DNA of 64,000 nucleotides from Lachnospiraceae bacterium (GTDB lineage: Bacteria > Bacillota > Clostridia > Lachnospirales > Lachnospiraceae): positions 310,001-374,000 of the forward strand of contig JAFUIR010000011.1 in the NCBI GenBank assembly GCA_017468395.1. The letters run 5' to 3'. A program made the translations under genes and the position numbers. Shown piece by piece: positions 6,359 to 41,686 of the stretch; the first letter of the stretch is position 1, and each line of letters starts with the position of its first letter. The notes beneath the pieces were generated by a model. It had not been told where the DNA came from, searched no databases, and saw only the letters and a list, made by a program, of their open reading frames with translations.

Positions 6359-7435
6359 GTGCAGGAGAAGCAAAAAGTACAGAGAAAAGTTCATATTGAA
6401 TTACTCCGTATTGCGGCCTGTTTCAGTGTGGTAATGCTCCACAGTGCTGCGCAATATTGGTATTCCTTTCCAGTTGACAGTAAGCAGTGGCTTATCTGCA
6501 ATACTTATGATGCACTTTTCCGTTTTGGGGTTCCGGTGTTTGTAATGATAAGCGGAATGCTTTTTCTGGGCAGGGAAGAAAAAATAGACATTAAGCGGCT
6601 GTTTAGGAAAAACATTTTACGGCTTGTAGTCATTTATCTGGTGTGGAGTTTTTTATATAGCCTGTGGCTGCTACGGGATTTCATTGGAACAGCGGAGTTT
6701 TCCTGGGGAAAATGTATAGAGTACAGTGTGCAGGGAAGATATCATCTGTGGTTTCTTTCCATGCTGGTAGCCATTTATCTGCTTTTGCCTATTTTAAAGA
6801 CCTGGACGGACCATGCGGAAAAAAGACACATACAATATTTTCTGTTGTTGTTTTTGATTTTGCAGATTGGCAAGGAAACCTTAGAGATATTTGAGTGGCC
6901 TACAGCTATGGACAGTGCGCTTAATTTAATTAACGTGGAACTGGCAGGCAGTTATGTGGGTTATTTTGTGCTGGGCTATTACATTTATAAATTTCCGCCT
7001 GTGAAAAAAATTCAAAACCTGATATATTTGTCGGGAGTAGCGGGAGCGGTTCTGGCAGCAGTTGTCAGTGCGGCAATGTCCCATTATTATAATTCTGCCC
7101 AGCCTGCGGCCTTTGACAGTTACAGTGTCTTTACCTTTTGCGTCAGTGTAGCTGTGTTTGTGTTTTTTCAGGAAAAAGTGTCAAAAATACAGTTTTCCCA
7201 AAGGGCAGGACGTATTATCTGCGCAGTGTCTGCGGACACTTTTGGGATATATTTGATTCATGTGATGCTTCTTGACACTTTAAAGACGGTGGATATCAGT
7301 ACTAAGGAACTGTTTGGACACCCCATCAGTTTGCTGTGGGGAATCCCTTTCATGGCAGTGTGCTGTTTTCTTATAAGCATGTGCGTTGCAGCGTTGCTGC
7401 GCCGGATACCTGTGGTGGGAAAATATATTTGTTAG
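6359..7435 (+). CDS. Acyltransferase-3 family membrane protein (surface glycan O-acylation)
   Basis: 358 residues, about ten membrane segments. The first segment carries HIELLRIAACFSVVMLHSAA, with the arginine and the histidine of the Acyl_transf_3 (OafA/WecH-like) signature. A short loop FRFGVPVFVMISG follows, as in the family. These proteins move an acyl group, usually acetyl, across the membrane to sugar hydroxyls. The GTG at 6359 is the only start near the AGG element at 6348-6350; it lies six bases after the previous stop. Confidence 0.82.
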   Translation: MQEKQKVQRKVHIELLRIAACFSVVMLHSAAQYWYSFPVDSKQWLICNTYDALFRFGVPVFVMISGMLFLGREEKIDIKRLFRKNILRLVVIYLVWSFLYSLWLLRDFIGTAEFSWGKCIEYSVQGRYHLWFLSMLVAIYLLLPILKTWTDHAEKRHIQYFLLLFLILQIGKETLEIFEWPTAMDSALNLINVELAGSYVGYFVLGYYIYKFPPVKKIQNLIYLSGVAGAVLAAVVSAAMSHYYNSAQPAAFDSYSVFTFCVSVAVFVFFQEKVSKIQFSQRAGRIICAVSADTFGIYLIHVMLLDTLKTVDISTKELFGHPISLLWGIPFMAVCCFLISMCVAALLRRIPVVGKYIC

Positions 7436-7463
7436 CCGGCAGGTAGGGATGAGGAGAAAAAAT

Positions 7464-8003
7464 ATGCAGAAAAAGTATAGCGACGGCAATATTTACCTGC
7501 GCCTTATGACATTGGAAGACACAGAGGATATTGTGCGGTGGCGTAACCAAGAGGAAGTGCGGAGCAATTTTATATATCAGGAATTATTTACTGTGCAGTC
7601 CCATGAGCGCTGGGTGGAAACTATGGTGAAAACCGGGAAAGTGGTGCAGATGGTGATTTGCGAGGAAGAAACCGGCAAAGGTATTGGTTCGGTGTATATC
7701 CGTGATATTGACCACAAGCATCACAAGGGCGAATACGGAATTTTCATCGGGGAGCCTTCGGGCCGTGGCAGAGGAATCGGCACAGCGGCGGCCAAACTGA
7801 TGTTACAATATGGTTTTAAGGAGCTTTCCCTGCACAAAATTTTCTTGCGGGTATTTGCGGACAACATACAAGCCATCCGCAGTTATGAAAAAGCGGGATT
7901 TGTGCAGGAGGCTTATTTAAAGGATGACGTCTGCATTGACGGAAAGTACCGTGATATGCTGTTTATGGCAGTGATTGGAGAGACAAAAAATGAAATTGAT
8001 TAG
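7464..8003 (+). CDS. GNAT-family N-acetyltransferase (RimJ/RimL-like)
   Basis: 179 residues. IYLRLMTLEDTEDIVRWRN opens a RimJ/RimL-type GNAT domain. RGRGIGTAAAKLML (around 97-110) is the Q/RxxGxG/A acetyl-CoA pyrophosphate loop, and the tail NIQAIRSYEKAGF is the conserved strand-helix block. ATG 7464 follows GAGGAG (7451-7456) by seven bases; the ATG at 7449 has its ribosome site too close. In this setting it may acetylate an amino sugar, for example the dTDP-Fuc4N expected from WecE, a WecD-like job. That substrate is a guess. Confidence 0.8.
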   Translation: MQKKYSDGNIYLRLMTLEDTEDIVRWRNQEEVRSNFIYQELFTVQSHERWVETMVKTGKVVQMVICEEETGKGIGSVYIRDIDHKHHKGEYGIFIGEPSGRGRGIGTAAAKLMLQYGFKELSLHKIFLRVFADNIQAIRSYEKAGFVQEAYLKDDVCIDGKYRDMLFMAVIGETKNEID

Positions 8004-8931
8004 TTTTGTAATTCCCTGTTATCGTTCGGAAAAGACGATTGGACATGTGGTAAAAGAAATTGAAGATACCATGACAGGCTCGGAGAAATATACCTTTGAA
8101 GTGATATTGGTAAATGACTGTTCACCGGACGGGACTTTTGGGGTAATCCGCCGTCTTTGTGAGGAGAAAACTTTTGTGAAGGGTATCAGTTTTGCCAGAA
8201 ATTTCGGTCAGCATGCGGCTCTTATGGCAGGGCTTAGGCATGCAAAAGGCGAGTATGTGGTATGTTTGGATGACGATGGTCAGACTCCGGCCAATGAGGT
8301 GGGTAAACTTCTGGACAAACTGGAGGAAGGCTATGATGCGGTGTACGCAACTTATGAACATAAACAACATTCCGCATTCCGCAATCTGGGAAGCAAAGTG
8401 AATGACTGGATGACCAGAGTAATGCTGGGCAAGCCTAAGGAACTTTATGTTTCCAGTTATTTTGTGGTAAGACGTTTTGTGGTGGATGATATGATCCGCT
8501 ATGAAAATTCTTATCCCTATGTAATCGGTCTGGTGCTTAGGGCTACCAAAAACGTGATAAATGTGCCGGTAAACCACAGAGAGCGTGAAGAAGGCCGCTC
8601 CGGCTATACGCTGAAAAAATTGCTCAGCCTTTGGTTCAATGGCTTTACGGCTTTTTCCGTGCTGCCTCTCCGGCTGGCTACCAGTATGGGGGTGTGCTGC
8701 GCAGGCATTGGATTTGTATACGGAATTTATACGGTTATCAAGAAGTTTGTAAATCCCGATGTGCCTTTAGGTTTCAGTTCCATGATGGCTGCCGTTGTGT
8801 TCTTTGGTGGCATGATTATGGTCATGCTGGGGCTTGTGGGTGAATATATCGGCAGAATTTACATTAGCATGAACAATTCTCCGCAGTATGTAATTCGTGA
8901 GCGGATTAATGTGGAAAAACAGGAGTTGTAG
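7990..8931 (+). CDS. GtrB/ArnC-like polyprenyl-phosphate sugar synthase (GT2)
   Basis: 313 residues. ISFVIPCYRSEKTI, VNDCSPDGT, FARNFGQHAALMAGL and LDDDGQTP match GtrB/ArnC enzymes, which transfer a sugar from NDP-sugar to undecaprenyl phosphate. HREREEGRSGYTLKKLLSLWFNG contains the conserved R-x-x-G-x-S-x-Y block, followed by two C-terminal membrane segments. The start overlaps the GNAT gene by 14 bases; ATG 7990 has GGAG nine bases upstream, better than the TTG at 7975. Together with the GT-C-like genes just downstream it resembles three-component glycosylation systems, but no GtrA flippase was found. Confidence 0.87.
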   Translation: MKLISFVIPCYRSEKTIGHVVKEIEDTMTGSEKYTFEVILVNDCSPDGTFGVIRRLCEEKTFVKGISFARNFGQHAALMAGLRHAKGEYVVCLDDDGQTPANEVGKLLDKLEEGYDAVYATYEHKQHSAFRNLGSKVNDWMTRVMLGKPKELYVSSYFVVRRFVVDDMIRYENSYPYVIGLVLRATKNVINVPVNHREREEGRSGYTLKKLLSLWFNGFTAFSVLPLRLATSMGVCCAGIGFVYGIYTVIKKFVNPDVPLGFSSMMAAVVFFGGMIMVMLGLVGEYIGRIYISMNNSPQYVIRERINVEKQEL

Positions 8932-20141: not shown

Positions 20142-21212
20142 ATGAAAGAGCGCATTTATGTGTGTCACACTTATTATCATGTGTATGTGACATTTTTAAA
20201 AGAACTGAATCTGCCAAAAGAAAAACAAGGACAAGCTACACTTGTCCTTAGCAGTATGTCTATAGACTTTGAAAAATTGAAAGAGCGTGTGGAGTCCACC
20301 GGGCTTTTTGAGGCAGTGGAAGAGTTTGATGAAAAGCGGGAAGATTTCTTTCCGCAGCTTTCGCAGTATAAAAAGGACCGGGGCAATATTGTATTTAATA
20401 TGTGGTTCCGCATCAAATTCACCAAAATGTTTGCAAAGTTGCAAGAACCCTATATTCCCGTAAATTTTAAGGAATACAAGGACATTTATGTATATTGCGA
20501 TTCGGATCCTATCGGCTATTATCTTAATCAGAACCGCATTCCGTATCATGCATTGGAGGATGGGCTGAATTGCCTGAAAAACTATGATTCCGCCAGATAT
20601 GACAATCGCGGTATGTTTGGGGTTAAAGCCTTCATGTCCGAGAAACTGAATCTGATTTTTATCCAGAACGGTTACGGAAAATATTGCGTGGACATGGAAG
20701 TTAATGATATTTCCCTGCTGAAATACGGGCATCCTAAATATATAGAGCAGTCCAGACAGGCTTTGGTGGAAAATTTAACACAGGAAGATAAAGAACTGAT
20801 TCTCAAGGCTTTTATCCGTGACAGAAAACGTCTGCAAGAGCAAATAGAGGAAAGCGGGCAGGTAGGAGATAAGATTTTGATTTTGACGGACCCGCTATGT
20901 ACATTGGATGTGAGGGAGCGGATTTTCCGGGATATTATTGCCATGTATGAAACAGAGGGGACTATCTTTTTGAAACCCCACCCGCGGGATGTGCTGAATT
21001 ATCGGGAGATGTTTGCAAAGTATCCCCAGTTTGATGCTACTGTGCCCATGGAAATGCTGAATTTCTTTCCGGGGCTTAGGTTTAAAAAAGTGGTGGCTGT
21101 ACTTACGGAAATCAAGGCAATACAGTTTGCGGACGAGGTAGTCAGACTTGGGGAGGACTTTATGGACAAGTATGAAGATCCCCTGATACACAGGCAGAAC
21201 GAGCAAATATAG
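20142..21212 (+). CDS. GT52-like glycosyltransferase (sialyltransferase family), candidate nonulosonic acid transferase
   Basis: 356 residues, soluble. The opening IYVCHTYYHVYVTFL is typical of GT52 proteins, and FLKPHPRDVLNYRE near residue 275 is the K-P-H-P-R motif of GT52 and polysialyltransferase-like GT-B enzymes that use CMP-sugars. ILTDPLCTLD before it also fits. The CMP-pseudaminic-acid genes lie 5 kb downstream in the same direction, so it may transfer that sugar to the glycan. ATG 20142 begins 55 bases after its promoter's -10 element. Family is moderately sure, substrate inferred. Confidence 0.65.
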   Translation: MKERIYVCHTYYHVYVTFLKELNLPKEKQGQATLVLSSMSIDFEKLKERVESTGLFEAVEEFDEKREDFFPQLSQYKKDRGNIVFNMWFRIKFTKMFAKLQEPYIPVNFKEYKDIYVYCDSDPIGYYLNQNRIPYHALEDGLNCLKNYDSARYDNRGMFGVKAFMSEKLNLIFIQNGYGKYCVDMEVNDISLLKYGHPKYIEQSRQALVENLTQEDKELILKAFIRDRKRLQEQIEESGQVGDKILILTDPLCTLDVRERIFRDIIAMYETEGTIFLKPHPRDVLNYREMFAKYPQFDATVPMEMLNFFPGLRFKKVVAVLTEIKAIQFADEVVRLGEDFMDKYEDPLIHRQNEQI

Positions 21213-24025: not shown

Positions 24026-26322
24026 TAGAGGCAGTCAAAAAAGGCGGAATAAAGTGTTGGATAATGCTGGGTATACAGGTGTTCCTACTGCTGCTTTTGG
24101 TAATCGGGCTTTGCGGTAAGAAAGAAGACATCCGCCTGGGTGGGGATTTCTTTATGGGAGCAGGCGTTTTCGATGAAGAAAGCGGAATATGGCACGCAGA
24201 TGCTAACCAAGGCTCTGCGGGACATTTCCTGACTTCCGGCGAATTGCCGGTATCTTCCGGTGTGTACCGGGTACAACTTTTTTACGAGACCGACACGGAT
24301 ATGACAAACCGGTGCTATATTACGGATTCTTCTGCGGCGCACCGGGAAGTGTTCAGTAATGGCGACCATCTATATGCAGGATTGACGTCCACGGACTATG
24401 AAGTATGGGTACTGGACGGAAACGGCTCTTTGAAAATCGAAGTGGAATACGGCGGAAGCGGTAGCCTTTCTGTAAAAGGTGTCAGAATTTATAATACCGG
24501 CGGTTTGGAGTCCATGCTTTTGTTTATGGCGGTTTTGGGGTTTGTGACCATAGATTTGTTGTATGTTTATTGGCAGAATCAAAAGGAAAAAGGATTTTCG
24601 GCTTCGCAGAAGGTGACTATATTGGCGCTGCTTGCTATTATAATCTACTCATCCCTTCCTCTGATGACGGATTACATTATTGCCGGCGGCGATTTGATAT
24701 TCCATTTACTTAGAATTGAAGGAGTAAAAGACGGGCTTCTTGCCGGTCAGTTTCCGGTACGCATTGCCCCCCAGTGGCAAAGAGGGCACGGTTATGCATC
24801 TTCCGTTTTTTATGGAGACACCATGCTTTTTGTGCCGGCGCTTTTGCGGCTTATGGGATTCCCTCTCCAGACAAGTTACAAGTTTTTGCTATTTGTGCTG
24901 AATGTGGGCACATGCCTGATTTCTTATTATGCTTTTAAGAAGATTTTAAATAACAGATATCTTGGTATTATGGGCAGTATGCTTTATACCATGTCTGTTT
25001 ACAGGCTTTTTAAGATTTATCATACTGCGGCATTGGGGGAGGCTATCAGTATAATGTTCCTGCCTCTTTTGGTGGTAGGATTTTATAAAATATTCACCGA
25101 AGATGTAAAGGATAAAAATTACCGGTGGAATTGGATACTTCCGACCATTGGCTTTTGCGGAATGATTCAGTCTCATATTTTGAGTACATACATTGTGGCG
25201 GCGTTTACGGTTTTTTTGTGTCTCCTTTTGTGGAAAAAAGTATTACGCAAAGAAACCTTTTTGGTGCTTACATCAGTGGTGGTATTTTCCGGTTTGATAT
25301 GCGCATGGTTTCTTGTACCTTTTCTAGATTATGTGGGCAGTGGGGAATTTGTAATCAACCATGTTTCTGCCAGAAAAATCCAGTTCAGGGGATTACAGGT
25401 GGCGCAGTTATTTAAGGTCTTTTTTAATGATGGACCAAGCACCATGTTTTTTGATAATGGTATGGTGGGGGCAGAACCTGCAGGTTTGGGTGGTTCCCTG
25501 CTTTTGGGCGGTCTTTTGTTTATCTGCCTGTGGTGTACCGGCGTGACATCTAATTTGGATAAGAAGTTGTTTAAAACCGGTAAAATAGCCCTTTTAGTTG
25601 CCGTGATTTCCATGGTTATGAGCACCCAGGTGTTCCCTTGGGACAGGATTCAGAAGTTGCATCCTGTAACGGCAACTTTGGTCAGCAGTTTACAGTTTAC
25701 AAGCCGTTTTCTGAATATTTCCACTATAGCACTTCTTGTGGTGACGGGGATAGCCGGTGTATGTATTTGGAAAACGGAAAAGATTTTGTGGAAAGGCGGA
25801 TTTGCAGCGGGAATTGCGGTAATGTTCCTGGTTTCCAATGTGTATTTGCTCAATGATATTTGTGATAGCGGTTCTTTCTTTAGGCTGTACAATGTGGGTG
25901 GAATGGGCACCGGATATATCAGCGGTGCAGAATATATTCCCGTGGGAACCGAAGCAGAAAGGCTTACCTATGCAGCCCCCGTTGCCGGGGAAGGTGTATG
26001 GGTGGAAGGTTATGAAAAAGACTATTTATCGGTAGAAATGACTTGTAGAAACGGTTCGCCCAAAGAAAGTTATGTGGATGTCCCCATTTTGTACTACGAA
26101 GGGTATCGGGCACAAACGGATGCAGGACAAGAACTGGAAGTTGGCTACGGAGAAAACAATATTGTCAGAATTTCCATTCCCGCAGGTTTTGAAGGAGGCG
26201 TGTCCATGGGCTTTGTCAGTCCCTGGTACTGGCGCGTGGCGGAAGTGGTTTCGGTGGTGACATTCTTAGCCCTTACGGGAGGCGTAATATGGGCAAAACG
26301 AAAGGAACAAAACCATGAGTAA
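24022..26322 (+). CDS. YfhO/PTPS-related large membrane protein, long paralogue 3
   Basis: 766 residues. Signal anchor, an N-terminal extracellular domain that differs in sequence from those at 13401 and 16795, then the core with GGDLIFHLLRIEG (D-x3-H-x2-R) and GHGYASSVFYGD, about twelve membrane segments, and a C-terminal domain with IPAGFEG as in the other two. ATG 24022 is in an ATGA overlap with the preceding GT2 gene and has GGAAGGGA upstream. It has no short partner; pseF begins eight bases before its stop. This suggests it acts with the pseudaminic-acid branch. Confidence 0.75.
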   Translation: MIEAVKKGGIKCWIMLGIQVFLLLLLVIGLCGKKEDIRLGGDFFMGAGVFDEESGIWHADANQGSAGHFLTSGELPVSSGVYRVQLFYETDTDMTNRCYITDSSAAHREVFSNGDHLYAGLTSTDYEVWVLDGNGSLKIEVEYGGSGSLSVKGVRIYNTGGLESMLLFMAVLGFVTIDLLYVYWQNQKEKGFSASQKVTILALLAIIIYSSLPLMTDYIIAGGDLIFHLLRIEGVKDGLLAGQFPVRIAPQWQRGHGYASSVFYGDTMLFVPALLRLMGFPLQTSYKFLLFVLNVGTCLISYYAFKKILNNRYLGIMGSMLYTMSVYRLFKIYHTAALGEAISIMFLPLLVVGFYKIFTEDVKDKNYRWNWILPTIGFCGMIQSHILSTYIVAAFTVFLCLLLWKKVLRKETFLVLTSVVVFSGLICAWFLVPFLDYVGSGEFVINHVSARKIQFRGLQVAQLFKVFFNDGPSTMFFDNGMVGAEPAGLGGSLLLGGLLFICLWCTGVTSNLDKKLFKTGKIALLVAVISMVMSTQVFPWDRIQKLHPVTATLVSSLQFTSRFLNISTIALLVVTGIAGVCIWKTEKILWKGGFAAGIAVMFLVSNVYLLNDICDSGSFFRLYNVGGMGTGYISGAEYIPVGTEAERLTYAAPVAGEGVWVEGYEKDYLSVEMTCRNGSPKESYVDVPILYYEGYRAQTDAGQELEVGYGENNIVRISIPAGFEGGVSMGFVSPWYWRVAEVVSVVTFLALTGGVIWAKRKEQNHE

Positions 26323-27016
26323 ATTAGCAATTATTACGGCCCGGGGCGGCAGTAAAAGGATTCCCAGAAAAAACATTAAGGAATTTTGCGGAAAGCCTAT
26401 TTTGGCATATTCCATAGAGGCGGCAATAAAATCCGGTCTGTTTGACGAGGTTATGGTGTCCACAGACGACGAGGAAATTGCAGAAATTGCCGTAAAATAC
26501 GGGGCAAAAGTGCCCTTTTACCGCAGTGAGAAAACTGCCAACGATTTTGCAACGACCAATGATGTGTTGTTGGAAGTACTGGAAGAGTATGAAAAGCGGG
26601 GGCAGCAGTTTGATATGGCCTGTTGTCTGTATCCTACAGCTCCTTTTGTGACAGCAAAAAAGATACAAAAGGCCTTTGAAATGCTGGAAAATTCCGATGC
26701 AGATACTTTGATTCCGGTTGTAGCCTTTTCATATCCGCCTCAGCGTGCTATGATAGTAAAGGATGGCCGGTTGGTTTTTGAGTATCCGCAGTATATGGAT
26801 TCCAGGTCTCAGGATTTGATCCCCCATTATCATGATATCGGGCAGTTTTATTGCTTCCGTGTGGAGGCGTACAAAAAGAACCGCAAACTGATGCTGGGTA
26901 ATATTTTGCCTTTTGAGATATCTGAGATGGAAGTGCAGGACATAGACAATCCTACAGACTGGGAAATTGCTGAGATGAAATTCCGTCTGGGCGGTTTTGG
27001 GAGTGAAAATGAGTAG
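26315..27016 (+). CDS. pseF: Pseudaminic acid cytidylyltransferase
   Basis: 233 residues, the normal length of PseF/NeuA-type CMP-sugar synthetases. AIITARGGSKRIPRKNIK is the CTP-binding loop. CCLYPTAPF and HYHDIGQFYCF are characteristic of PseF rather than NeuA or KdsB. The enzyme joins CTP and the nonulosonic acid to give the CMP donor. AAAGGAAC lies just upstream of ATG 26315. It overlaps the YfhO-like gene by eight bases and the FkbH-like gene by eight bases, so the run is tightly coupled. PseF is preferred over LegF because PseI and PseG follow; biochemical specificity is not proved. Confidence 0.85.
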   Translation: MSKLAIITARGGSKRIPRKNIKEFCGKPILAYSIEAAIKSGLFDEVMVSTDDEEIAEIAVKYGAKVPFYRSEKTANDFATTNDVLLEVLEEYEKRGQQFDMACCLYPTAPFVTAKKIQKAFEMLENSDADTLIPVVAFSYPPQRAMIVKDGRLVFEYPQYMDSRSQDLIPHYHDIGQFYCFRVEAYKKNRKLMLGNILPFEISEMEVQDIDNPTDWEIAEMKFRLGGFGSENE

Positions 27017-28649
27017 AAAAACAGCCATTTTGTCCAATATTAATATAAGCCCTTTGGTTCGGGAACTGAAAAATGATTCCCTGATAGAAGTCTATGAACC
27101 GGAAGGGTATGGAAACGAGTTGGGATATTTGTTAAATCCGAACTCTTCTTATCATGTATTTGGACCGGAAGCTACTTTTATATGGATGGATGTGGCGGAA
27201 TATCTGGGGCATGAGACAGATGTGGAAAATGCAAAAGCAAGGATTAGGCAGTGGTTTGGCACTTTTCTGGCATGCCTGAAAAGCGAGGTGTCTTATTTTG
27301 TTTCCGATGTACATTGGTGGGGAAATGAGATACTGGTGGGAGAAAACAAACTTAACCAAAAACAGATAGAATACATTTGGATGCAGGAACTGCAGAAAGT
27401 ATGTAAGGAAAACAGTAATGTTTATCCCCTTTCTTATGCCTGTATCATTGAAGAAATCGGTGTGAGAAACGCCTATTCCTCCAAAATGTGGTATATGGGA
27501 AAAATCGCTCACACACAGGCTGTATTTGAACAGATGGCAGTGGAAGTGAGAAGGAAAGTGACATTGCTTTCCCGTGTGCCTAAAAAGGTGTTGGTACTGG
27601 ATTTGGATAATACCCTGTGGGGCGGACTGGCAGGAGAACATGATGTACATCCCATCGTTCTTTCCGAGGACCACAAGGGCTTGGCATACAAAAATTTGCA
27701 GAGAGTGATTCTGCAAATGAAAAAAAGTGGTGTCATGTTGGCAATCAGTTCCAAAAATAATAGGAACGATGCCATGGAAATACTGCAAAATCATCCTCAT
27801 ATGGTTTTGCGGCCGGAAGATTTTGTTGCCATGGAGATTAACTGGGAACGAAAACCGGACAACTTGCGCAAAATAGCCCAAACATTGAATGTGGGATTGG
27901 ATTCCTTTGTGTTTTTTGATGACAGCGATGTGGAGCGTGAAATGGTGGGAAAAATGTTGCCCGAAGTAACAGTGGCGCAGTTTCCTGCCAAAGCGGAAAA
28001 CCTGGCAGAAGGTATGCTGGATATTTACCGCAGTTATTTTGAAGTGTTGAAGATTACTGAGGAGGACCGGGAAAAAACGGCTCTGTATTTTGCAAATACC
28101 AAACGACAGGAACTGCAAAACAGCGTGACGGATTTTAGGGGATATTTGCGGGAACTGGAAATGCAGATTGTTTGGGAAAATCCCGGCAATAATAAAGAAA
28201 GATTGTTGCAATTGGTAAATAAAACCAATCAATTCAACCTGACTACCAAACGTTATGAAGCGGCAGAATTGGAAAAGGTTTTGGAAAATGACCAAAAACA
28301 GGTATATTTGTACCGTGTGACGGATAAATTCGGCGATAATGGTATTGTGGGCGTGGTGATTGTGGACACCACAAAGGAAACGCCTTTGATAGAAGAGTTT
28401 ACCATGAGTTGCCGGGTAATGGGCAGGCAGATAGAGGATTACGTTTTGGATTATGTGGAGGAGGATATAAAGAAGATGGGATTTCACACTCTGGAAGCCC
28501 TATATATCCCCACAGCAAAAAATGGTCCTGTGGAAAAGTTATATGATAGAATGGGTTATGAAATCATAGAAGAAAGTGCCGCGCAAAAGCGCTACCGACT
28601 TGAGTTGGAGTGCAAGCCGGCGAGAGAATTTTTTGTGAAGGAGTCCTGA
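27009..28649 (+). CDS. FkbH-like HAD-superfamily protein (acyl-ACP loading, probably glyceryl)
   Basis: 546 residues. VLVLDLDNTLWGG holds the HAD catalytic aspartates (D198, D200). ISSKNN and FFDDSDVERE supply the later HAD motifs. The C-terminal acyltransfer domain has FTMSCRVMGRQIEDYVL, the conserved S-C-R-v-x-G-R block of FkbH proteins. FkbH enzymes take 1,3-bisphosphoglycerate, dephosphorylate it and load a glyceryl unit onto an acyl carrier protein. The next gene is an acyl carrier protein. ATG 27009 has GGGAG five bases upstream and is preferred over TTG 26997. Position between pseF and a PseH-like gene suggests it prepares an unusual N-acyl group for the sugar. Confidence 0.82.
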   Translation: MSRKTAILSNINISPLVRELKNDSLIEVYEPEGYGNELGYLLNPNSSYHVFGPEATFIWMDVAEYLGHETDVENAKARIRQWFGTFLACLKSEVSYFVSDVHWWGNEILVGENKLNQKQIEYIWMQELQKVCKENSNVYPLSYACIIEEIGVRNAYSSKMWYMGKIAHTQAVFEQMAVEVRRKVTLLSRVPKKVLVLDLDNTLWGGLAGEHDVHPIVLSEDHKGLAYKNLQRVILQMKKSGVMLAISSKNNRNDAMEILQNHPHMVLRPEDFVAMEINWERKPDNLRKIAQTLNVGLDSFVFFDDSDVEREMVGKMLPEVTVAQFPAKAENLAEGMLDIYRSYFEVLKITEEDREKTALYFANTKRQELQNSVTDFRGYLRELEMQIVWENPGNNKERLLQLVNKTNQFNLTTKRYEAAELEKVLENDQKQVYLYRVTDKFGDNGIVGVVIVDTTKETPLIEEFTMSCRVMGRQIEDYVLDYVEEDIKKMGFHTLEALYIPTAKNGPVEKLYDRMGYEIIEESAAQKRYRLELECKPAREFFVKES

Positions 28650-28677
28650 AAAAAGGATTTGACGGAGGCAAAACATA

Positions 28678-28899
28678 ATGGAAGCAAAGATTATCAGTAT
28701 CATTGAAGAAATTTTAAAGGTTCCGGCAGGAAGTGTGAACGCCGAGACTAAAATGGAAGATTTTGAGGCGTGGGATTCTTTGGCGCATGTGTTGATTATC
28801 GGTGCGCTGGAAGAACAACTGGGCATTGAAATCCCTTTGGATGAGGCCATTGAAATTACCGGCGTAGAGGAAATTCTAAAGTACGCATCAGAGAAATAA
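28678..28899 (+). CDS. Acyl carrier protein
   Basis: 73 residues, acidic, all-helical in pattern. FEAWDSLAHVLI contains the D-S-L phosphopantetheine site (Ser34). It is a discrete carrier protein rather than a domain of a synthase. It lies 28 bases after the FkbH-like gene and 18 bases before the GNAT gene, so it is the natural carrier linking the two. A fatty-acid ACP would normally sit with fab genes, which are absent here. Confidence 0.88.
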   Translation: MEAKIISIIEEILKVPAGSVNAETKMEDFEAWDSLAHVLIIGALEEQLGIEIPLDEAIEITGVEEILKYASEK

Positions 28900-28917
28900 C
28901 AGGCATAGGTAGAGAAT

Positions 28918-29469
28918 ATGAGTGTTACCCTTAGAAAAATTGTTGAGCAGGATTTGGAGCGCATCATGAATTGGCGCATGGACCCTGATATTACACGATA
29001 TATGAATACGGACCCGGTGCTGACCATGGAAGGACAGCGCAAGTGGCTGGCATCCATAGAGAGCAGACAGGATGTGAAATATTGGCTCATTGAGGTGGAT
29101 GGGCAGCCCGCAGGGGTTATTAATATCGGCGGTCTGGAGCATCCCGAAGGTCACTGCACTTGGGGATATTATGTAGGAGAAAAACGGCTCCGTTCCATCA
29201 AAACAGCTCTTGGTCTGGAGATGAGCATGTACGATTATCTTTTTGTTAAATTGGGCAAAAAGAAGTTGTACGGAGATATTTTTTCCTTAAATCAGGGTGT
29301 GATACAATTGCATCTTATGTGCGGCAGTGAAATTGTGGAAGAGAAAAAGGCCCATGTGGAGAAAAACGGCGAGTTTTTTGATGTCACGTTTATGTGTATG
29401 ACTGCGGAAAAGTGGTTGGAAATCAGAGACAGGAAAAAATACGAGAAAATTGAGTTCCCTGATGTTTGA
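28918..29469 (+). CDS. pseH: GNAT N-acyltransferase, PseH-like
   Basis: 183 residues. VTLRKIVEQDLERIMNWRMDPDITRYM is typical of PseH and related GNAT proteins, which N-acylate UDP-4-amino-4,6-dideoxy-AltNAc before PseG. The middle block WLIEVDGQPAGVINI and YYVGEKRLRS follow. The usual R-G-x-G-x-G/A coenzyme A loop is poor (KRLRSIKTALG), which could fit use of an acyl-ACP donor rather than acetyl-CoA. The ACP gene directly upstream makes that attractive. Name by context and N-terminal pattern; donor inferred. Confidence 0.7.
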   Translation: MSVTLRKIVEQDLERIMNWRMDPDITRYMNTDPVLTMEGQRKWLASIESRQDVKYWLIEVDGQPAGVINIGGLEHPEGHCTWGYYVGEKRLRSIKTALGLEMSMYDYLFVKLGKKKLYGDIFSLNQGVIQLHLMCGSEIVEEKKAHVEKNGEFFDVTFMCMTAEKWLEIRDRKKYEKIEFPDV

Positions 29470-29502
29470 CCGGGACTTTGTAAGCGGAGAAAGTGAGACG
29501 AG

Positions 29503-30555
29503 ATGAATAAGGAAATTAAAATTGGAGACCGAATCATAGGGGAAGATACCCCCGTATTTATTATTGCAGAAATGTCAGCAAATCATCTGATGGATTATGA
29601 CAGGGCGGTGGCAGTTATGAAGGCAGCCAAGGAAGCCGGTGCGGATGCCATTAAGATTCAGACGTACAAACCGGACACCATTACCTTGGACTGTGATGCG
29701 CCGGATTTTCAGATTACCCAAGGAACCATTTGGGACGGAACAACTTTGCACAAACTTTATGAGGAGGCGTATACTCCTTGGGAGTGGCAGCCGAAACTGC
29801 AAAAAGAAGCACAGGATATGGGACTGATTTTCTTTTCCTCTCCTTTTGATTTGACTTCGGTGGATTTTTTGGAAGAAATGGACATTCCGGTCTACAAAAT
29901 TGCCTCTTTTGAAATTAATGACATTCCTATGATCAAAAAGATAGCGAAACTGGGCAAACCCATTATTTTTTCTACGGGAATTGCCCATATGGCGGATATT
30001 GAACTGGCGTTAAAAACTTGTAAGGAAGAGGGAAATGAGAATGTGATTTTGTTGAAATGCACTTCTTCCTACCCTTGTCCGTACGAAGATATGAATCTGC
30101 GCACCATCACAAATATGAAAGATACCTTTGATTGTGTGGTAGGTGTATCGGATCATTCTATGGGTAGTGCTGCGGCAGGTGCAGCAGTGGCGCTGGGAGC
30201 CAGAGTGGTGGAAAAACATTTGACTTTAAGCAGGGCAGACGGCGGTGCGGACAGTGCTTTTTCCATGGAACCTCAGGAATTCAAAGAAATGGTGGATAAT
30301 ATCCGTATCATTGAAAAGGCTCTCGGAAAGGTAACCTATGAACTGACTGAAAAACAGGCAAGGGAAAGGGAACATTCCAGATCCTTGTATGTGGCAAAGG
30401 ATATGAAGGCGGGCGAGGTGTTCACACCGGAAAATGTAAAATCCGTTCGTCCTGCATTTGGACTTCACACAAAGCATTATGAAGAAATTTTAGGAAGAAA
30501 AGTGACAAAGGATGTGTCCATGGGAACCCCTATGTCATGGAATTTGGTAGAATAG
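29503..30555 (+). CDS. pseI: Pseudaminic acid synthase
   Basis: 350 residues, the normal NeuB-family length. FIIAEMSANH, then YTPWEWQPKL and TLSRADGGADSAFSMEP are the PseI hallmarks that separate it from NeuB and LegI. The N-terminal TIM barrel condenses 2,4-diacetamido-trideoxy-altrose with phosphoenolpyruvate; the last 60 residues form the SAF (antifreeze-like) domain with the KSVRPAFGLHTKHYEEILG block. It starts 33 bases after the PseH-like gene and ends 10 bases before pseG. Confidence 0.9.
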   Translation: MNKEIKIGDRIIGEDTPVFIIAEMSANHLMDYDRAVAVMKAAKEAGADAIKIQTYKPDTITLDCDAPDFQITQGTIWDGTTLHKLYEEAYTPWEWQPKLQKEAQDMGLIFFSSPFDLTSVDFLEEMDIPVYKIASFEINDIPMIKKIAKLGKPIIFSTGIAHMADIELALKTCKEEGNENVILLKCTSSYPCPYEDMNLRTITNMKDTFDCVVGVSDHSMGSAAAGAAVALGARVVEKHLTLSRADGGADSAFSMEPQEFKEMVDNIRIIEKALGKVTYELTEKQAREREHSRSLYVAKDMKAGEVFTPENVKSVRPAFGLHTKHYEEILGRKVTKDVSMGTPMSWNLVE

Positions 30556-30565
30556 AGGAGAGGTC

Positions 30566-31597
30566 ATGTTTTTTGTCAGGGCAGACGGTAATGCGGCTAT
30601 CGGTGCAGGACATCTTATGCGGTGTCTGACGGTGGCAGAGGAAATAAAGAAAAAACAGGATGTGTGTGTGCTCTGCGGGGACGAGGCTTCTGCTGCTTTG
30701 GCGGAAAGTTACGGATATGAAACCAAAGTGCTCGGGGAACTGCCGTTTTCTGTGCGGGAAGCGGAAAAAATCTGCGGACTGTTACAGGGAGATAAGCAGG
30801 ACAAACTATTAGTAGACAGTTACCTGATCTCCAAAGAATATGTTTCCTGTCTGACGCAAAAGGCCTTTGTTATTTGTTTTGATGATATGGCGGATAAGAT
30901 TTTGCCGGCGGACATGGTGGTAAATTATAATGTGTTTGCTACAAAAAAACGGTATCATCTGTTGTATGAAGGCGTGGAAAAGAAGCCGGAATTTTTGTTG
31001 GGAGCATCTTATATTCCCTTAAGGGAGCAATTTCGGGGAGCAAAAGAGAACGTCAGATGGCAATTTACGGATGTGCTGATTACAACCGGTGGCGGTGATG
31101 AAAAAAATCATGCCGGAACCATTTTGGAAAGTCTTTTAAAAAGAAAAGAACTGGAAAATGTGACGTTTCATGTGGTGTGCGGTGCGTTCAGTCCCAATTA
31201 CGAGAAACTGACAGAGGTGTCGGAAAATAACGGCCGTGTGGTACTTCACAAAAATGTGAAAGATATGGCGGGGCTGATGCAAAAGTGTGACGGGGCAGTA
31301 ACTGCGGGAGGCACTACGGTATATGAACTATGTGCCTTGGGAGTGCCTATGGTTGCCTTTTCTTACGCAGAAAACCAAAAACAGTTAGTGTCTTATCTGG
31401 CAAAGTTGGATAGAGGGTTGGGAGCGGGCTATTTGCCCGATGAACCTTGGGAAGTGATTGAAAATATTGTCTGCGCCGTAGCGGAAATGGCGACATCCGC
31501 AAGCAGGCGCACAGAACTGATAAAAACGGAAAAAAGTTTGGTGGATGGCATGGGTGCGGTGCGCCTGGCTGGGAAATTTATGGAGAACCCGAATTGA
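30566..31597 (+). CDS. pseG: UDP-2,4-diacetamido-2,4,6-trideoxy-altropyranose hydrolase
   Basis: 343 residues. FFVRADGNAAIGAGHLMRCL is the PseG glycine-rich loop with the catalytic histidine, and the C-terminal half (ITTGGGDEKNH, TAGGTTVYELCALGVPMV) is the GT-B nucleotide-sugar half. The enzyme releases UDP to give the free sugar used by PseI. Gene order pseI-pseG with a 10-base gap supports the call. The stop overlaps the TTG start of the next gene. Confidence 0.9.
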   Translation: MFFVRADGNAAIGAGHLMRCLTVAEEIKKKQDVCVLCGDEASAALAESYGYETKVLGELPFSVREAEKICGLLQGDKQDKLLVDSYLISKEYVSCLTQKAFVICFDDMADKILPADMVVNYNVFATKKRYHLLYEGVEKKPEFLLGASYIPLREQFRGAKENVRWQFTDVLITTGGGDEKNHAGTILESLLKRKELENVTFHVVCGAFSPNYEKLTEVSENNGRVVLHKNVKDMAGLMQKCDGAVTAGGTTVYELCALGVPMVAFSYAENQKQLVSYLAKLDRGLGAGYLPDEPWEVIENIVCAVAEMATSASRRTELIKTEKSLVDGMGAVRLAGKFMENPN

Positions 31598-40558: not shown

Positions 40559-41686
40559 ATGATTAATTTTAATGTACCACCCCGTACAGGAAAAGAATTG
40601 GAATATATCGCAAAGGCTATAGAAAATAATAAAATTTGCGGTGACGGAGAATTTACCAAGAAATGTAACACATGGTTTGAAGAAAGAACGGGGGCGCGCA
40701 AGTGCCTGCTGACCACTTCCTGTACCCATGCTACAGAGATGGCGGCGCTGTTGGCAGATATTAAAGAAGGGGATGAAGTAATCATGCCTTCTTATACCTT
40801 CGTATCTACAGCGGATGCTTTTGTGCTCCGTGGAGCCAAGGTGGTATTTGTGGATATCAGACCGGACACTATGAATATTGATGAAAATCTGATTGAAGTG
40901 GCTGTGACCGAGAAGACGAAAGCTATTGTACCGATGCATTATGCCGGCGTATCCTGTGAGATGGACAAAATTATGGAGATTGCTAAGAAATATAATCTCA
41001 TTGTGATTGAGGATGCGGCTCAGGGTGTGTTGTCTTACTATAAGGGCAAGGCGCTGGGAACTATCGGTGATTTTGGCGCTTTTAGTTTTCATGAGACAAA
41101 GAACTATAGTATGGGCGAGGGCGGAGCTCTTCTGATTCAGCATGAAAAGGATATCGAGGAAGCGGAGATTATCCGTGAAAAGGGTACAAACAGAAGTAAG
41201 TTTTACAGAGGTCAGATTGATAAATATACTTGGGTAAATTACGGTTCTTCCTATCTTCCCAGTGATATGAATGCGGCATATTTGTATGCACAACTTGAGA
41301 TGGCGGATGAGATTTACGAAGCAAGAATGGCATGTTGGAACCGTTATTACGAGAATTTGAAACCTTTGGCGGACGCGGGAAAAATTGAACTTCCCTTTGT
41401 GCCGGAGCATTGCGTACACAACGCCCATATGTTTTATATCAAAACCAAGGATATTGAAGAGAGAACAGAATTTATTTCATTCTTGAAAGAAAGAGGTATC
41501 ATGTCTGTGTTCCATTACATTCCTTTGCATTCAGCGCCGGCGGGGCTGAAGTTTGGTGTGTTCCATGGGGAGGATAAGTATACCACAAAGGAAAGCGAAA
41601 GACTTAGCAGACTGCCTATGTATTATGGGCTGACACTTGATGAGGTAGATAAAATCTGTGATGTGGTTAAAGAGTTTTATAAATAA
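40559..41686 (+). CDS. wecE: dTDP-4-amino-4,6-dideoxygalactose transaminase
   Basis: 375 residues. It follows E. coli WecE/RffA along most of its length as I remember that protein: INFNVPPRTGKELEYI at the start, DEVIMPSYTFVSTADAFVLR, VDIRPDTMNIDE, and FHETKNYSMGEGGA with the PLP lysine K181. EDAAQG gives the conserved Asp152. The enzyme converts dTDP-4-keto-6-deoxyglucose to dTDP-Fuc4N using glutamate. Its substrate would come from RfbA and RfbB, encoded at 51.7-53.7 kb. A different DegT-family role is unlikely given the close match. Confidence 0.9.
   Translation: MINFNVPPRTGKELEYIAKAIENNKICGDGEFTKKCNTWFEERTGARKCLLTTSCTHATEMAALLADIKEGDEVIMPSYTFVSTADAFVLRGAKVVFVDIRPDTMNIDENLIEVAVTEKTKAIVPMHYAGVSCEMDKIMEIAKKYNLIVIEDAAQGVLSYYKGKALGTIGDFGAFSFHETKNYSMGEGGALLIQHEKDIEEAEIIREKGTNRSKFYRGQIDKYTWVNYGSSYLPSDMNAAYLYAQLEMADEIYEARMACWNRYYENLKPLADAGKIELPFVPEHCVHNAHMFYIKTKDIEERTEFISFLKERGIMSVFHYIPLHSAPAGLKFGVFHGEDKYTTKESERLSRLPMYYGLTLDEVDKICDVVKEFYK

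Follow-up and report, generated by a model that had tools for sequence, protein, structure and literature searches.

Enzymes of the FkbH family take a glyceryl unit from 1,3-bisphosphoglycerate and load it onto an acyl carrier protein (ACP), and in the biosynthesis of pseudaminic acid (Pse) the 4-amino group acylated by PseH becomes N7 of the sugar. These two chemistries appear to meet in a 64,000-nucleotide stretch of the genome of a gut bacterium of the Lachnospiraceae (assembly GCA_017468395.1, contig JAFUIR010000011.1, positions 310,001 to 374,000; hereafter the window), where genes for an FkbH-like protein, an ACP and a GNAT-family acyltransferase stand in succession among pseudaminic acid genes (the fkbH-acp-GNAT block). 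The six genes of this run probably direct the synthesis of a pseudaminic acid in which the 7-N-acyl comes from an FkbH-loaded acyl-ACP, most likely as glyceroyl, rather than from acetyl-coenzyme A (CoA). If so, an acyl group drawn from 1,3-bisphosphoglycerate would tie a sialic-acid-like surface sugar to glycolysis; the block is found in dozens of relatives and might account for an unexplained natural variant of pseudaminic acid.

Such a variant is made by Tannerella forsythia, whose Pse5Am7Gra carries an N-glyceroyl group at position 7 (PMC6388019, PMC6120980); in strain ATCC 43037, the gene for the glyceroyl was described as elusive, and unassigned open reading frames (ORFs) intercept the pse region (PMC6120980). 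This strain shares the N-glyceroyl at position 7 with the product predicted here, and the numbering of its locus tags allows for further genes between pseF (Tanf_01200) and pseH (Tanf_01225), where fkbH and acp stand in the window (PMC6120980). The fkbH-acp-GNAT block is a candidate for the elusive gene. In Acinetobacter, psaABCDEF leads to Pse5Ac7Ac and psaABCGHF to the 7-N-(R)-3-hydroxybutanoyl form; there, likewise, an exchange of genes at the N-acylation step alters the 7-N-acyl, but the acyl is hydroxybutanoyl and FkbH is unmentioned in the passage on these modules (PMC9676051). Aeromonas group II islands carry genes for an ACP, a 3-oxoacyl-ACP reductase and an AMP-synthetase in the vicinity of pse genes, for which a possible liposugar was suggested (PMC7874193). 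In Campylobacter jejuni 11168, the flagellin locus includes cj1302, which encodes an FkbH domain; as in the block, such a gene is placed within a Pse locus (PMC7099621). The glyceryl-ACP cassettes of polyketide pathways (Mad7/Mad8, tetromadurin) share an FkbH-like gene adjoining a stand-alone ACP gene (PMC7489565); unlike them, the block has no polyketide synthase or FabH-like partner, and its predicted acceptor is a sugar amine. Among the matches listed for open-licence PubMed Central, no proposal of FkbH or glyceryl-ACP for nonulosonic acid acylation was found.

Organization and recurrence of the block

The window sequence and profile matches place pseF-fkbH-acp-GNAT-pseI-pseG in one plus-strand run that spans 26315 to 31597. 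The gene for CMP-pseudaminic acid synthetase, pseF (26315..27016; TIGR03584, 294.8 bits, cut-off 205.7), overlaps by 8 bases the gene for an FkbH-like HAD-IIIC protein, a predicted glyceryl-ACP synthase (27009..28649, ATG at 27009; TIGR01686, 291.6 bits, cut-off 146.65). Gaps of 28, 18, 33 and 10 bases then precede acp (28678..28899; 73 amino acids; PF00550, 4e-10, with the DSL attachment serine aligned), the gene for a PseH-like GNAT, predicted to be an acyl-ACP:UDP-4-amino-sugar N-acyltransferase (28918..29469), the pseudaminic acid synthase gene pseI (29503..30555; TIGR03586, 498.3 bits, cut-off 340.25) and the UDP-sugar hydrolase gene pseG (30566..31597; TIGR03590, 198.2 bits, cut-off 153.55). 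This is the order, and the spacing of less than 35 bases, claimed in the original prediction; the end it gave at 30555 holds for pseF to pseI but not for pseG, which lies beyond it. The GNAT, at 90.1 bits, falls 3 bits short of the curated PseH cut-off (TIGR03585, 93.1), which divides the family set of eight block GNATs (G099, G198, G195, G274 and G135 above; the window, G022 and G290 below).

The domain score and HAD motifs of the FkbH protein are those of FkbH-like glyceryl-ACP synthases, its predicted function. The motifs DLDNTxWGG, SKN and SCR(V/I) were invariant in 10 of 10 aligned sequences, and the sole solved structure matched by sequence at E 0.01 was 3slr (BF1531). The residue before SKN is Ser in the window and Cys, as in 3slr, in just one of the ten (G195), a requirement for Cys not being established. 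Elsewhere on the contig, the window is preceded by PseC (481.5 bits, above cut-off) at a distance of ~6 kb, and PseB (419.5 bits on the part read, cut-off 407.75) lies upstream of PseC; PseB, PseC, PseG, PseI and PseF all exceed their NCBIfam cut-offs in the host genome, and since PseC and PseB are also present, each of the six Pse steps has a gene there. All steps of the PseB-C-H-G-I-F pathway of C. jejuni and Helicobacter pylori thereby have a counterpart; the GNAT differs from the PseH of these species in scoring under the cut-off, in missing the residues that contact the CoA pyrophosphate and in its linkage to fkbH and acp.

Other genomes, one per species, were searched with the GNAT alignment as query, using patterns that favor WGYYVGEK-like GNATs; 80 of 113 confirmed loci were kept. 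In 63 of these 80 loci, chosen by GNAT similarity alone, fkbH, acp and the GNAT gene occurred in order, on one strand and within 3.5 kb (an extra frame may lie between them, e.g., in L140), and pseI followed within 1.8 kb downstream in 55 of the 63. All three genes were present but rearranged in L187 and L197, FkbH was ~8 kb upstream, at the locus edge, in L127, and ten loci had no FkbH; in four more (L147, L168, L169 and L193), the contig ended between 3 and 1037 bases upstream of the ACP frame, and FkbH is not judgeable there. Most of the 80 loci carry Lachnospiraceae titles, with single ones from Selenomonadaceae, Synergistaceae and Treponema metagenome-assembled genomes (MAGs); one carrier of the block, Acetatifactor muris DSM 23669 (L130), is in culture. 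Besides the block GNAT, no canonical PseH-type GNAT was found in 78 of the 80 loci (up to 8 kb each side, some contigs being shorter; other acyltransferase folds were not searched), which supports placing the block GNAT, by gene content, at the PseH step.

In a sample of 299 family genomes, FkbH was above cut-off in 63 and PseI in 67; both were present in 34 (hand count) and lay on one contig, within ~10 kb, in nine. With the window proteins as queries, FkbH, ACP and this GNAT type occurred jointly in eight of the nine and side by side in seven; the three genes were rearranged in G195, and G094 was without the GNAT. As controls, 40 of the 58 genomes having PseI above cut-off but no FkbH nearby were fetched, and the GNAT profile exceeded 100 bits in only one of the 40 pse loci (L113, with a weak ACP match alongside). 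FkbH loci read elsewhere in the family (L008-L036) had an ACP match nearby in 25 of 29 cases, and this GNAT in two of those. Because such pairs occur also outside pse loci, FkbH-ACP looks like a movable glyceryl-ACP cassette, which the GNAT couples to pseudaminic acid.

Outside the family, a MAG titled Treponema (G309) stood apart among 296 genomes from its phylum, 36 of which had a GNAT match at E 1e-15: its GNAT scored 254.2 bits, the next best 128.9 bits. Among the best 30 of the 36 loci, read ~1.5 kb each side, FkbH was found only at that of G309, and its block may therefore reflect transfer or misassignment. In the same phylum, L244 has an unusual-loop GNAT between two ACP-like matches and no FkbH in 3.4 kb. 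The title of another contig, L173 (Muribaculum), is doubtful, its 392-genome group sharing entries with the family of the window (same coordinates as G022). At two of the loci cut short by contig ends, L168 (583-1461) and L169 (1037-1996), ACP ends frames of 292 and 319 amino acids, with an N-terminal part without an identified match.

Coenzyme A contacts of the acyltransferase

In H. pylori PseH, the main chain of Gly103 and the residue Lys133 hold the CoA pyrophosphate, Asn131 is among the pantetheine contacts, and Tyr138 probably acts as the general acid (PMC4363471). Mapped through an alignment with C. jejuni PseH and by spacing, these correspond to the loop 92-97, position 127, Asn125 and His132. 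The window GNAT has RSIKTA in place of the RGxGx(G/A) of CoA-type relatives, and Gly127 instead of Lys, bearing out the earlier remark that it lacks a clear coenzyme A loop. The comparison covered 80 GNATs, namely the window and 79 loci; L174, whose GNAT is fused to PseF and whose loop is also changed, was left out of these tables. Asn125 was kept, and position 132 was His, in all 80. Lys127 was found in exactly five (L192, L194, L195, L198 and L199), each with RGxGx(G/A) and with neither FkbH nor ACP in its locus; these come from four genomes, three of them without any FkbH, and L192 passes the PseH cut-off (135.3 vs. 93.1). In the remaining 75, Lys127 was absent, and 66 of these had both FkbH and ACP. 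Judged by these residues, contacts to the CoA pyrophosphate are gone from the block GNAT, and the pantetheine contact remains. It would be a case of a GNAT going from CoA to a carrier protein, and the block provides a two-gene marker, to which the absence of Lys127 and of an RGxG loop adds a signature at residue level. A precedent for such a change of donor exists in the LuxI family, where some enzymes prefer acyl-CoA and others acyl-ACP (PMC4234381).

Donor, identity and acceptor of the acyl group

Under the scheme favored here, FkbH would take 1,3-bisphosphoglycerate, put D-glyceryl on the phosphopantetheine arm of ACP and remove the phosphate, as expected from its family. The GNAT would then move the acyl from ACP to the 4-amino group of the Pse precursor, PseG, PseI and PseF would yield CMP-Pse5Ac7Gra, and Pse5Ac7Gra would enter a surface glycan built by the rest of the locus. 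The acyl is placed at position 7 because of the fate of the 4-amino group in the known pathway. ACP-delivered acylation of the precursor is likely on the sequence comparisons above, and glyceroyl would be the most probable single acyl, giving a predicted 7-N-glyceroyl pseudaminic acid. The original prediction, that a glyceroyl or other hydroxyacyl group passes from ACP to the sugar, is partly supported, by the PseH placement, the tie to FkbH and ACP and the lost CoA contacts; glyceroyl is the predicted acyl, and CoA may also serve as donor. With rather less confidence, and at chances slightly below even, the FkbH-ACP-GNAT trio may be how N-glyceroyl nonulosonic acids are made in general, in T. 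forsythia too; the GNAT would be a PseH whose donor changed from CoA to a dedicated carrier protein, and FabG-linked forms of the route would handle other hydroxyacyls.

Several observations weigh against delivery from ACP. L174, L181 and L183 have a changed loop in loci that lack both FkbH and ACP, and their genomes hold FkbH-ACP pairs elsewhere (L174 encodes, at 7314-8630, a PseF-GNAT fusion in one protein of 438 amino acids); L195 has an intact loop, yet its genome has two FkbH elsewhere; the block GNATs of L125, L130, L134, L140 and L143 formally match (Q/R)xxGx(G/A) as RSxGxA; and G188, a distant GNAT, keeps its Q..G.G loop intact next to a weak ACP match. The residue change maps to a single event on a tree that was built quickly and has some long branches (L174 and the short-contig loci L145, L147, L159, L165, L168, L169 and L193 left out, seven rows added), so the match between residues and ACP is one independent pair and counts once. 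FdhC, a sugar N-hydroxybutanoyltransferase, has no glycine loop, yet was solved with bound CoA and hydroxybutanoyl-sugar (PDB 5ktc), and the loop by itself therefore cannot exclude CoA; FdhC differs from the block GNATs in retaining, by alignment, a lysine at the 127 position. L182 (3041-3586) and L190 (1428-1916), from MAGs titled Treponema and Synergistaceae, carry a canonical PseH-type GNAT beside the FkbH block. A second PseH-like GNAT lies outside the block in the window itself (7386..8003, plus strand; TIGR03585, 88.8 bits, under cut-off), has the ordinary CoA loop RGRGIG and could be the acetylating PseH of the host. In C. jejuni, loss of the dimethylglycerate was tied to cj1295, which is required (PMC7099621), and Hitchen 2010 writes the sugar as Pse5dimethylglycerate7Ac, with the acyl at position 5 (PMC3068675).

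The same route may carry another acyl, the FkbH-loaded unit being epimerized, methylated or oxidized on ACP or replaced by another hydroxyacyl; we consider this rather unlikely. A Glyoxalase_4 domain is fused to the block GNAT in L179, L182, L184 and L188 and encoded by a free gene in L191 (8558-8968; 54.1 bits to the methylmalonyl-CoA epimerase family TIGR03081, cut-off 114.95), as expected for alpha-carbon chemistry on an acyl thioester. The domain, which resembles methylmalonyl-CoA epimerase, may invert the alpha carbon of such a thioester. In L186 (7256-8537) and L189 (2054-3378), the loop is changed, the locus has no FkbH, and an SDR/FabG-like gene of the 3-oxoacyl-ACP-reductase type is paired with the GNAT directly upstream; L186 also holds ACP, L189 has only 2.8 kb upstream, and both are possible hydroxyacyl-ACP variants of the block. 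Modified glyceroyl is known from C. jejuni 11168, which has cj1302 and makes a di-O-methylglyceroyl Pse (PMC7099621, PMC3068675). The dimethylglycerate-Pse was detected in 11168 and undetected in 12664, where cj1302 is a pseudogene, and in 12661, which has no cj1301, a gene annotated as epimerase (PMC7099621). Its oxonium ion is 391 vs. 317 (PMC3068675), from which we calculate that the acyl replaces an acetyl. The strain data fit the favored scheme, in which FkbH supplies the acyl; this link is ours and not that of the original study, and further genes vary among the strains. Unlike the block, moreover, the C. jejuni locus has the change assigned to cj1295, with no FkbH role proposed in the passages on it, and the position written as 5 (PMC7099621, PMC3068675). 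Against a modified acyl in the window, the interval from pseF to pseG there contains no methyltransferase or epimerase.

That the GNAT acylates a different amine, either the 5-amino group or that of another sugar, while a separate enzyme performs the PseH step, is improbable. Both GNAT types are held by L182 and L190, and therefore another acceptor is possible there; the additional GNAT at 7386 in the window and the position written for the C. jejuni sugar (PMC3068675) point the same way. The 78 of 80 loci without a further canonical PseH-type GNAT (up to 8 kb each side, some contigs being shorter, that fold only) argue instead for the 4-amino group, as do the score of the relative L192, above the PseH cut-off, and the T. 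forsythia glyceroyl, which sits at position 7 (PMC6388019).

In dlt D-alanylation, DltB works with a carrier protein, and the window encodes a DltB-like MBOAT protein (34068; DltB match 145.7 bits, cut-off 375). FkbH and ACP might accordingly feed this protein or an SGNH protein for a dlt-like decoration of a polymer, leaving the GNAT as an ordinary acetyl-CoA PseH, which we regard as very improbable. Neighbor homologs were counted only in the 49 FkbH-positive loci that extend at least 7 kb downstream: an SGNH homolog occurred in 30, but an MBOAT homolog in just two, and the reading was rejected on this inconstant linkage of MBOAT to the carrier protein. The GNAT has also lost CoA pyrophosphate contacts, and the SGNH protein, from its N-terminus, reads as membrane-anchored and extracytoplasmic, apart from ACP.

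A chance neighborhood in a mosaic polysaccharide island, with FkbH and ACP serving an unrelated product, is barely credible: FkbH-ACP pairs are common without this GNAT (25 of 29 loci against two), but the recurrence of the ordered block in 63 of 80 loci and the tie of the GNAT type to FkbH and ACP already largely refute it. ACP-delivered acylation of the Pse precursor remains the preferred explanation.

Surroundings of the block and destination of the sugar

The host genome (2.6 Mb, 92.72% complete, 29 contigs) contains no other FkbH match than that of the window. The gene at 40559 encodes a WecE-like aminotransferase rather than PseC; because a PseC/WecE-like aminotransferase in L080 adjoins a GNAT with a loop like that of the second GNAT of the window (7386-8003), the latter may be a partner of the gene at 40559. 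Flagellin genes exist in the host genome. A PF01973 match, sought for a flagellin destination, was not found, a weak negative, as the bacterial controls gave none for PF01973 either. Upstream of the block, a GT52/polysialyltransferase-like protein (20142..21212, plus strand; PF07922, 3.9e-10; PF07388, 1.1e-7) is a candidate nonulosonic acid transferase, with homologs in 24 of the 49 FkbH-positive loci and in 12 of the 40 pse loci without nearby FkbH. The window also encodes a GtrII protein, dTDP-rhamnose genes and an ABC-type permease (under cut-offs), and GDP-fucose genes lie upstream of it on the same contig; together with the GT52-like protein, these suggest a surface polysaccharide as the destination of the sugar.

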